DNA from: Bacteroidota bacterium
Lineage (GTDB): Bacteria > Bacteroidota > Ignavibacteria > Kapaibacteriales > UBA2268
DNA: 64,000 bases
Direction of reading: 5' to 3'
Assembly: GCA_004322215.1 (NCBI GenBank)
Contig: SCSM01000013.1
Span: 62,001 to 126,000 of the forward strand
The translations under genes and the position numbers were made by a program. The notes beneath the pieces were generated by a model, which made no database searches, was not told where the DNA came from, and saw only the letters and a list, made by a program, of their open reading frames with translations. The number at the start of each line of letters is the position of its first letter. Position 1 is the first letter of the stretch. Positions 18,390-21,957 of this stretch are shown here, piece by piece.

Positions 18390-18746
18390 TTATTCCGACA
18401 ACAAAGACTCTTCCGGTACACCCAGCTTATCATTCAATGTTCTCATCATTTGTAATGACAATTTTCTTTTTCCAGATAATATTTCTGAAACCCTGCTTCT
18501 GTATCCAGGATAACATCTCAAATCTGACATTTTCATTCCAAGTTGTTCCAACCTAAACTTTACCGCCTCTAATGGATTCGGTGCTTCAATTAAAAATCTC
18601 TCTTTTTCATTGTTTTCAACAAGAATTGATAAAATATCCAGCTCATCCGATTCCTTTGAACCTGATTTTAAACTCTTTTGCATAAGTACGTAAATCCTTT
18701 CCAGGGCTTTTTCGTAATGCTTCTTATTTTTTATTGGTTTTAACAT
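18390..18746 (-). CDS. higA: HigA-type HTH antitoxin/regulator (COG5499-like)
   Basis: MLKPIKNKKHYEKALERIYVLMQ...ELDILSILVENNEKERFLIEAPNPLEAVKFRLEQLGMKMSDLR...RSRVSEILSGKRKLSLQMMRTLNDKLGVPEE. Confidence 0.85.
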   Translation of the reverse strand: MLKPIKNKKHYEKALERIYVLMQKSLKSGSKESDELDILSILVENNEKERFLIEAPNPLEAVKFRLEQLGMKMSDLRCYPGYRSRVSEILSGKRKLSLQMMRTLNDKLGVPEESLLSE

Positions 18747-18761
18747 TACTTATATATTTTT

Positions 18762-18974
18762 TTAATTATCCTGACTCACAGCTTCTAATACAGATTTAAC
18801 AATTTTGGGATGCAATGATTTGTTTGAATGAAATGGAATAACAAATCTCTCCTCATTTCTAAAATAAATTCTATGACTTCCTTTTGACCTGAGTAATATA
18901 AATCCTGAATTTAAAAGCATTTTTTCGGCTTCTTTAGCAGTTAATACAGGTAGTTTAGGCAATAGCGACCTCAA
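18762..18974 (-). CDS. hicA: HicA-family mRNA interferase toxin
   Basis: LTAKEAEKMLLNSGFILLRSKGSHRIYFRNEERFVIPFHSNKSLHPKIVKSVLEA. Confidence 0.88.
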   Translation of the reverse strand: MRSLLPKLPVLTAKEAEKMLLNSGFILLRSKGSHRIYFRNEERFVIPFHSNKSLHPKIVKSVLEAVSQDN

Positions 18975-19179
18975 TACTGGTTGAATAAATATCTTTATTT
19001 AGTATGATTGAATCCTTGTCAGGGTCAATTGTTTCAAGATATAGTTCAACAGCTTCTTTAATATTTGTAACTGCTTCTTCGAATGTTTCTCCTTGAGTAT
19101 GGCACCCCTTTAATTCTGGACAATATACATAATAACCATACTCATCTTTTTCTATAATAACAGTTAATTTCCCTCTCAT
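18955..19179 (-). CDS. hicB: HicB-family antitoxin (overlaps hicA by 20 nt)
   Basis: LTVIIEKDEYGYYVYCPELKGCHTQGETFEEAVTNIKEAVELYLE. Confidence 0.9.
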   Translation of the reverse strand: MRGKLTVIIEKDEYGYYVYCPELKGCHTQGETFEEAVTNIKEAVELYLETIDPDKDSIILNKDIYSTSIEVAIA

Positions 19180-19249: not shown

Positions 19250-19328
19250 TAAAGATAAAAAAAAAAGAGCCAAGGGTACAACCCCCGGCTCACAGGTTTA
19301 GAGGACTCATAATTAAACCTGTTTTTTT
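19250..19328 (-). terminator. Tandem hairpins downstream of the T9SS-tailed anti-sigma gene
   Basis: ACAGGTTTA(19292-19300)/TAAACCTGT(19314-19322), and GAGCC(19267-19271)/GGCTC(19287-19291), the latter followed by U-tract on minus strand. Confidence 0.75.
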
Positions 19329-21255
19329 ATTCTACTATAACTCTCTGAACTGCCTGCTCGCCTTTGTCGCTGCGGACTGAAATCAAATACATACCTGGCT
19401 CGATGTCCTGAAGTTTAAAGCTCTCGCTTCTGTCACCACTTGGAAATGATTTCATAGCTGACAGCTCTGCAATTTTTCTTCCGGATAAATCGTGCAAAAT
19501 AATACTAAGCATTCTCGGTTCGAGTAATGTGAAGCTTAGATTTACTTTCCCGGATGTGGGATTGGGAAACACTGTCAGATTTTCCAATGCACCGCTGCAT
19601 GAACGCCATACATCAAAATATGTATCTTTACCTGCAATTGTAGCTGCTTCGCATATATTATCTGCATCCTGTAAAATTTTTATTTCCGGCTCCAATTTGT
19701 TCCTTACCTCAGCAGGTAATGCTTCGAGTAACTTTGGAGTCGGGTCATACCAGAATATAAATGAATATGACCTCGGTGATTCGCCCTTCACTGGTATTTC
19801 TATTGGAATCAGCTTGTTAATCTTTATATATTTATCAATATTAATCTCTATGTTCTTCAATTTATTATCGAGTTCCTTCAACCGCATATCGTTCAACTTG
19901 ATTTTTATATCTTTTAACTTTTTAATACTGCTGTCGAGCTTCATTGAATCATCGTCGTATTCTTCGATTCTAATTCTGTATTTCCTGATTTTCTTTCCGA
20001 CATTTTGCTTGTCCTGCTCAAGTTCTTTCAGGTATTCATCCTGGAGTTCAGGAAATGAATGAAACTCATATAAATTATCAGGATTCGGTATATCAGGAAC
20101 TATTATATTGGGAAAACATAATGAATCGAGTGATTCAAATCCTCTAAATAATGTATCCCATTTAAAATCTAATGCACATGATGTATCAAATTTAAACACT
20201 TTGAATTTATGTCTCAAACTATCGAGATTCATCCTGGAATATTTAAGATATTTTTTACTCGTATCATATTTCTTCATTGCTTCTTTCATAATAGAATCAA
20301 TATTGTTCTTATTATATTTTAATGTATATACTCTCATTGCTTTTGAATAAGCATCATTCACCATCGAATCAACATTGATTTCAACATCGTAATTCTTTTT
20401 GAACCTTTTATTATTATACTTTTTTCTACTTCCTTTAGATGAAGTGTCAGAAATAGATATAACTTTAACAATTGATTTATTATTATTGTCATCATCCAAA
20501 TTCTCTGCTACTGCACGATTGATTAATGATATTGTTTCTTCTTCATCTACTCTCTTATTACTGTCTTTCAGGAAAGGAGAAAGAAATTTACTCGAGTATT
20601 TTGCCTGAATCAAATGGGCTCCATCGTCATCGAGAACGAACACTCTCCTGTTTCCCGCATTATCGGTAATCAGCCGTGGAGAGAAATCAGGAACATTATT
20701 TTCTTCTACCGACAACTTTGAATCATCGGACATGGAGAATCCCCCCTTGACATATAATGTACACAAAATCGGTTTTTTCCCTTTTGTGTCCCAGTAAATC
20801 AGTTTAGGATTATCAGGATTTTTTTCATCAATTTTAATCCCAAGCTTATCGAGGTCTGTATCCTGGAGTTTGACAATCTGCACACCTTTCACATTCACTT
20901 CGGAATTATTTTGATTTTCTTCTGTTGAATCGGTCAACAGTGAATTATTATTAGAATTATTTGTCTGTGAATTATCATTTCTTATTAAATAATTTTCTTT
21001 TACCTGATTTGAATTATTATCATTACTTGCAATGTTGAATGCTGCTATTCCTACTGTAGCTGCTGCTGCAGCAATTGTTGCCAATTTAAACATAATCGGT
21101 GCTCCTTTATAGTAATTTATTATATTTCCAAAAACAGTTCTTTTATTTGAAGCAAAATTTTCAATTAAAGAGCGGGCATCCTCGCCTGACAAGACCGGCT
21201 CCTGGTTTCTTGCCTTAAGGAAATAATCTTCAATATTTTTCTTTTCGTTATTCAT
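19327..21255 (-). CDS. Anti-sigma-like single-pass membrane protein with C-terminal T9SS type A sorting domain
   Basis: ~54 aa polar N-terminus, one hydrophobic segment MFKLATIAAAAATVGIAAFNIA, long Asn/Lys-rich region, C-terminus NLTVFPNPTSGKVNLSF...LHDLSGRKIAEL...IEPGMYLISVRSDKGEQAVQRVIVE; 4-nt overlap with ECF sigma gene. Confidence 0.75.
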   Translation of the reverse strand: MNNEKKNIEDYFLKARNQEPVLSGEDARSLIENFASNKRTVFGNIINYYKGAPIMFKLATIAAAAATVGIAAFNIASNDNNSNQVKENYLIRNDNSQTNNSNNNSLLTDSTEENQNNSEVNVKGVQIVKLQDTDLDKLGIKIDEKNPDNPKLIYWDTKGKKPILCTLYVKGGFSMSDDSKLSVEENNVPDFSPRLITDNAGNRRVFVLDDDGAHLIQAKYSSKFLSPFLKDSNKRVDEEETISLINRAVAENLDDDNNNKSIVKVISISDTSSKGSRKKYNNKRFKKNYDVEINVDSMVNDAYSKAMRVYTLKYNKNNIDSIMKEAMKKYDTSKKYLKYSRMNLDSLRHKFKVFKFDTSCALDFKWDTLFRGFESLDSLCFPNIIVPDIPNPDNLYEFHSFPELQDEYLKELEQDKQNVGKKIRKYRIRIEEYDDDSMKLDSSIKKLKDIKIKLNDMRLKELDNKLKNIEINIDKYIKINKLIPIEIPVKGESPRSYSFIFWYDPTPKLLEALPAEVRNKLEPEIKILQDADNICEAATIAGKDTYFDVWRSCSGALENLTVFPNPTSGKVNLSFTLLEPRMLSIILHDLSGRKIAELSAMKSFPSGDRSESFKLQDIEPGMYLISVRSDKGEQAVQRVIVE

Positions 21256-21860
21256 TTTTCACCTCTATGCGAAATTTTATTCAATTCAAATTTTTCCGTT
21301 TTACTATCTGAAAAAGCTTTCCCATTCTTTTTCTCAAAAAAAATCCTCTTTGGTTTCGGACTATAATCATCCTTCATGATTTTTTCCAGCATATCTCTTC
21401 CTCTTTTCAATCGTGACTTCACTCCCGACAATGTCCCGCCCTGAACTTCCCTGATTTCATCGAGTGTGAATCCCGATATTTCAAACAATATGATAGCTTC
21501 CCTGTACTTTTCTTTTAATTTATTCAATGCGTTGTAAAGCACTTTAACATCAACGTTATTTTCTACATAATCGGAACTAAAAGGAAGCTTTTCTGCTTTT
21601 TCATTATCAAATTCTTTAAATAATTTTCTTCTCCATTTTCCTCTTTTGAAATGACGGCTCGCAATTGTAAACACAAAACTTTTGAAAGATTCCTTTTTCT
21701 TCACTCTGCTGAAATTCTCAAAAGCCGCAAGAATCGTATCGCTTACTAGGTCACGCGAATCCTCGCGATTCCTTGTCAATGCCATTGCATAACCCGAAAG
21801 CTGTCCGAGAACGGGTTCGAGCAGTTTCAGAAATTCTTCCTTTTTTTCCCTGTCCGTCAT
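21252..21860 (-). CDS. ECF-type RNA polymerase sigma factor
   Basis: Region 2 NREDSRDLVSDTILAAFENFSRVKKKESFKSFVFTIASRHFKR; region 4 LKEKYREAIILFEISGFTLDEIREVQGGTLSGVKSRLKRGRDML. Confidence 0.92.
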   Translation of the reverse strand: MTDREKKEEFLKLLEPVLGQLSGYAMALTRNREDSRDLVSDTILAAFENFSRVKKKESFKSFVFTIASRHFKRGKWRRKLFKEFDNEKAEKLPFSSDYVENNVDVKVLYNALNKLKEKYREAIILFEISGFTLDEIREVQGGTLSGVKSRLKRGRDMLEKIMKDDYSPKPKRIFFEKKNGKAFSDSKTEKFELNKISHRGEK

Positions 21861-21957
21861 TTCTTTTTTTTGTAATTTCGCTTCAGTATATAAGTGTCAT
21901 AAGTTCAAAAAAAGTTTCATTATATTATCAGGGTTTTTATTTATTAGACGTTTTTTT

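Follow-up and report, generated by a model that had tools for sequence, protein, structure and literature searches.

A family of anti-sigma-like membrane proteins ending in a type IX secretion sorting domain and carrying a predicted second start

The window (the whole stretch of DNA that was analysed, 64,000 nucleotides, part of contig C22 of a 4.2-Mb genome) contains an ECF sigma factor gene followed by the gene of a 642-aa anti-sigma-like membrane protein, which ends in a sorting domain of the type IX secretion system (T9SS). By a narrow measure, we are inclined to read this protein as the counterpart, with a C-terminal T9SS sorting domain (CTD), of the barrel-ended Dma anti-sigmas: engaged by the T9SS, autoregulating, and accompanied by a short form that sets the threshold of the response. 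The strongest new point is a conserved second start, located where the transmembrane segment (TM) begins. The nearest named relatives of this genome, which belongs to a little-studied lineage (Kapabacteria/Ignavibacteria), are MAGs carrying the labels Ignavibacteriae and Candidatus Kapaibacterium. Both open reading frames (642 and 202 aa) lie where the initial annotation had placed them and the 4-nt overlap between them is present in the sequence; that annotation mentioned neither the sister architecture with a barrel-type end nor the conserved internal start. The features of the locus, in the direction of transcription, are as follows.

21891-21918, minus strand: putative autoregulatory ECF promoter, GAAACTTTTTTTGAACTTATGACACTTA; a similar sequence lies upstream of homologous sigma genes
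21252-21860, minus strand: ECF sigma factor gene, 202 aa (Pfam Sigma70_r4_2 7.5e-10, Sigma70_r2 4.1e-8), overlapping the next gene by 4 nt
19327-21255, minus strand: gene of the 642-aa CTD-type anti-sigma-like protein, long form (Por_Secre_tail; 91-locus family)
21097-21255, minus strand: residues 1-53, conserved cytosolic N-terminus, presumed sigma-binding domain (conserved residues; helices 8-16 and 24-35 in a low-confidence model)
21102-21108, minus strand: internal Shine-Dalgarno sequence (SD) AAAGGAG, 8 nt before the ATG of codon 55 (from sequence; the 16S anti-SD tail in the same genome is CCTCCTTT)
21091-21093, minus strand: internal start codon ATG (Met55) of a predicted short form of 588 aa; Met55 is invariant in an eight-sequence alignment
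21025-21096, minus strand: transmembrane segment, residues 54-77 (hydropathy; helix 52-77 in the model)
20620-20886, minus strand: small conserved extracytoplasmic domain, residues 124-212 (xGVxxIxLxxxELxxLGI; alignments, strands 140-207 in the low-confidence model)
19828-19935, minus strand: long predicted helix in the Asn/Lys-rich linker, residues 441-476 (low-confidence model)
19576-19818, minus strand: conserved pre-CTD module, residues 480-560 (NKLIPV...W..P...LPE...C...WRSCSGAIENL; alignments)
19333-19572, minus strand: T9SS type A sorting domain (CTD), residues 562-641 (Pfam, NCBIfam and fold match)
19257-19326, minus strand: likely terminator, a hairpin and then a T-run 3' of the stop codon (from sequence)

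The hairpin and T-run after the stop codon of the anti-sigma gene point to an operon of two genes. With regions 2 and 4 in the sigma factor and a membrane partner arranged beside it, the two genes form an ECF sigma/anti-sigma pair in which inhibition is predicted. No conserved downstream partner of the operon was found across the compared loci. Directly after the operon, the window has small genes resembling a HicB/HicA pair and a helix-turn-helix protein (18390-19179, minus strand). The same genome carries three paralogous sigma/CTD-protein pairs. At the third, the gene of a beta-propeller-like protein (L221:3450-4439) shares 4 nt with the anti-sigma gene, a partner that is not conserved elsewhere. 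About 2 kb from this third pair lies the gene of a 344-aa probable lipoprotein that matches part of SprA (TIGR04189, 371-586; L221:8597-9631, which is C12:58597-59631 of the genome).

Hydropathy gives the 642-aa protein a sole TM, the hydrophobic segment at residues 54-72, in agreement with the single TM near residue 55 proposed initially. Residues of about 200-480 resemble a tether, being Asn/Lys-rich and mostly below 50 in pLDDT, with two small conserved domains beside them. In the pre-CTD module, Cys 535 and Cys 553 are invariant in the closest eight proteins; a disulfide between them is possible, and the module is a possible sensing domain. The full-length AlphaFold model is poor (mean pLDDT 40.9), with a better CTD region (about 70-85 over most of it), and the presumed sigma-binding role of residues 1-53 therefore rests on conservation and gene pairing. 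The assignment of the C-terminus to the T9SS type A domains was upheld by Por_Secre_tail (PF18962, E 9.4e-9, 35.9 bits against a cut-off of 27, residues 562-641) and TIGR04183 (E 1.7e-8, 34.3 bits against a cut-off of 23). Foldseek matched the predicted CTD to the solved T9SS CTDs of RemA (8gl6_D, E 9.8e-4) and mirolase (8qb1, E 1.7e-3); a search of PDB sequences using the family profile gave two weak CTD-type matches only. Since the genome holds at least 150 T9SS type A domains and a SprA translocon, a CTD tag is meaningful there.

The initial annotation had suggested a search for ECF sigma genes followed by TM proteins with a sorting domain, and such pairs proved to recur in one lineage. The search for sigma homologues covered 100 relatives, and the C-terminal profile (A1) was run on 124 genomes of the order. 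The analysis includes 91 loci with the layout of sigma factor, N-terminus, TM, linker and CTD; they are spread over 49 genomes, of which 47 belong to one order and two fall outside it but within the same class. Across the 91 loci the TM starts at a median residue of 52, and the anti-sigma start codon overlaps or abuts the sigma stop at 54. When 396 genomes sampled from the phylum were scanned, the C-terminal profile matched in only 18 (16 of this order and two of its class). Weaker profile matches without a sigma gene (L188-L193) are ordinary cargo, and the distant matches inspected in a pattern-based scan of contigs past the close relatives are ordinary signal-peptide-bearing T9SS cargo. More distant sigma homologues have short anti-sigma-like proteins downstream, without a CTD. 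Among Bacteroidia relatives, sigma homologues are followed by anti-sigma-like proteins of about 280 aa (L232-L239), in which a conserved Met stands right before a TM ending in a lipobox-like L-I-A-C; if translation began at this Met, the segment would be a lipoprotein signal peptide. These proteins may have a parallel dual-form design; no SD precedes that Met.

Downstream of ten sigma homologues in this order lies the gene of a protein with the same kind of N-terminus and TM and a different end. From their sequence pattern, the C-termini of these ten sister proteins look like outer-membrane barrels, with weak Pfam OMP matches. The N-terminal profile (region of residues 1-53), run on a small database, also matches the barrel-type proteins at E values from 3e-8 to 0.02, and the weakest match (L072) scores no better than its own shuffles. 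This arrangement is that of the Dma proteins, which have a sigma-binding end, a TM, a disordered tether and a C-terminal barrel, with an adjoining ECF21 sigma factor (PMC13088901). Because the sister proteins carry a barrel-like end behind the same N-terminus and TM, the CTD would occupy the position of the Dma barrel. The window protein thus resembles Dma in several respects: a presumed sigma-binding region at the N-terminus, a single TM followed by a long disordered tether, an outer-membrane-related C-terminal domain and an adjoining cognate ECF sigma factor. It differs in ending in a T9SS type A sorting domain (Por_Secre_tail) and not in a beta-barrel, and in having extra conserved linker domains and a conserved internal start. 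We suggest that it works like a Dma protein, but we do not class it as one, since the predicted TM and tether and the sigma partner are present and the barrel is absent. At one locus (L142, G069:C130:21300-25800), an 853-aa open reading frame apparently encodes sigma factor and CTD-type anti-sigma together, which recalls Dma3.

The internal start of the window protein has the form AAAGGAG-N8-ATG (21108-21091), and in the alignment of the closest eight proteins the N-terminal half has very few invariant positions, one of which is Met55, at the start of the TM. With TM and start calls made heuristically, and an ATG counted from 12 codons before to 5 codons after the TM start, an in-frame ATG accompanies the TM in 74 of the 91 family members, and 50 of the 91 combine it with an SD energy of -5 kcal/mol or lower. 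The mean SD energy is -5.25 kcal/mol, compared with -3.83 +/- 0.20 in synonymous-codon shuffles (0 of 2000 as low), and the SD z-scores overstate certainty because the family sequences are related and not independent. Choosing the ATG by position only, rather than as the best of several, gave the same result. In contrast, 742 other internal ATGs show no deviation (-1.95 vs -2.05 in shuffles). The SD-to-ATG spacing in the family is mostly 6-7 nt, and the SD core falls in varied codon phases, encoding KG, WR, RR or GG. Examples of the internal start are present in eight of eight taxonomic families sampled. The ATG is missing from 17 of the 91 members, including a paralog in the genome studied here; L046 and L049 are paralogs that lost the internal start. 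An Rfam search for an RNA element had no match, and the folding around the internal start is not unusual (z 0.63). The sequences themselves show nucleotide-level selection on the SD/ATG signal, along with the layout and its conservation.

It has been proposed that SD-like stretches within genes slow the ribosome, and the internal SD could accordingly mark a translational pause site, or be a side effect of codon bias before the TM, and not a start. We consider this distinctly unlikely, as SD and in-frame ATG occur together and at canonical spacing. In addition, the SD is present in 70% of members with the ATG vs 18% of those without it (p 1.5e-4), and precedes only 1 of 19 out-of-frame ATGs in the same region. 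Other TMs seldom show the combination: an SD and ATG at the TM are found in 8 of 98 TMs of other proteins, compared with the 50 of 91 in the family (p 1.5e-12). Among the barrel-type members, none of ten has an internal ATG preceded by an SD. As the conserved signal is missing from shuffles, other ATGs, other TMs and the barrel-type proteins, a second, N-terminally truncated product is likely made from the internal start.

This predicted short form begins at the TM (MFKLATIAAAAATVGIAAFN...). Its N-terminus was set against 17 cargo signal peptides from this genome: it has fewer basic residues at the start, and a simple custom score for a signal-peptidase site has a family median of 0.3 for the short form vs 2.3 for cargo (p 0.05). 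For these two reasons, it is somewhat more probable that the short form is a membrane-anchored twin lacking the sigma-binding end than that it is a secreted cargo protein, and the secreted reading was set aside on evidence that is not decisive.

A further question is whether the whole protein is ordinary T9SS cargo, with Met55 as its true start, the TM as a cleaved signal peptide and the upstream codons as noise; the initial annotation had named this outcome as one that would undo its proposal. The CTD is like that of type A cargo in sequence and predicted fold, and a strong SD before a Met55 invariant in the closest homologues would suit this reading. Nevertheless, it is very improbable. Residues 1-53 are conserved as protein across the family and are common to the barrel-type proteins, the gene always stands beside an ECF sigma gene, with its upstream start overlapping the sigma gene, and the short N-terminus is poorly like cargo signal peptides. 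Type A cargo begins with a cleavable signal peptide, whereas in the long form the TM follows a charged cytosolic N-terminus of 53 residues, and a sigma factor is its partner. Because of the conserved N-terminus and the sigma pairing at all 91 loci, ordinary cargo does not fit the long form.

The promoter region bears on what the sigma factor controls. A motif of about TG[AC][AG]ACTTTTTT...TGACACTTA is common upstream of many family sigma genes. In the whole genome this pattern has two exact matches only, one at this operon and one at a paralogous sigma gene on contig C20, so that the main target of the sigma factor is probably its own operon. Allowing up to two mismatches added three further sites, fewer than a reversed-pattern control. 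The whole-genome pattern search placed no T9SS genes under the inferred promoter, and the idea of a T9SS regulon was rejected on that basis.

The initial annotation had proposed that the circuit senses T9SS capacity, with a free CTD reporting a blocked T9SS and the released sigma factor upregulating T9SS genes. The CTD is present, and in Porphyromonas gingivalis the CTD protein PorA acts upstream of PorXY-SigP (PMC7712824). PorA shares with our protein a CTD and a place upstream of an ECF sigma factor, but it is a small, secreted, signal-peptide-bearing surface protein that acts via a two-component system (PMC7712824), whereas the window protein unites the CTD and the presumed sigma-binding end in one chain. 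We regard capacity sensing as unlikely, given that the inferred promoter is exact only upstream of sigma genes and that three paralogous pairs in one genome fit a single housekeeping sensor poorly. SprA is found in 122 of the 124 genomes of the order, with or without the sigma/CTD system, so its co-occurrence is uninformative and lends the proposal no support. What stands of the original reading is the combination of an anti-sigma-type membrane protein, an ECF sigma factor and a T9SS domain, as a conserved class and not an odd fusion; the sensing of T9SS capacity, though possible, finds no support in the regulon evidence.

It is also conceivable, although doubtful, that the same anti-sigma has no T9SS role, and that its CTD is a periplasmic beta-sandwich or an outer-membrane anchor sensing the state of the envelope, as Dma barrels presumably do. 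Barrel and CTD ends swap behind the same N-terminus, the CTD tail of the window protein (..GEQAVQRIIVE) is unlike the cargo CTD tails seen in its own genome, and the inferred promoter stands at no T9SS gene. On the other hand, the main features of a sorting domain are kept in the CTD, and the T9SS is near-universal in the lineage.

Under the T9SS-engaged reading that we favour, we infer sigma binding, CTD engagement, a release trigger and a role for the short form. The anti-sigma would cross the inner membrane once, hold the sigma factor by residues 1-53 of its long form, and reach toward the outer membrane with its long linker and terminal sorting domain, where the T9SS machinery would recognise the CTD. 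Loss of this engagement, or cleavage of the linker, would free the sigma factor, which would mainly raise transcription of its own operon. Initiation at Met55, with its own SD, would yield the short form, which keeps the TM, linker and CTD of the long form and has no sigma-binding end; it could compete for the partner of the long form and so set the response threshold. We propose only tentatively, and with less than even confidence, a two-isoform, envelope-spanning switch in which sigma release is set by the ratio of the long form to its sigma-blind twin together with the occupancy of the secretion machinery.

Dual-start genes are familiar in bacterial systems, for example lambda holin S and the long and short forms of CheA, in which a shorter product, made from an internal in-frame start, modulates the full-length protein. 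The present case is alike in its in-frame internal start and shorter, here predicted, product; it is set apart in that no dual-start anti-sigma factor has been reported in the searchable literature. In the literature searched, we found no description of a CTD-ended anti-sigma, and the dual-start feature in such anti-sigmas is nowhere described. If our reading is true, the Dma principle, in which one protein reaching from the cytosol to the outer membrane controls a sigma factor, would extend to the type IX secretion system, barrel and sorting-domain ends would be interchangeable, and a conserved dual-start design would be added to what is reported for anti-sigma factors. It makes testable whether a sorting domain on an inner-membrane-anchored protein may engage the T9SS and signal back to transcription.
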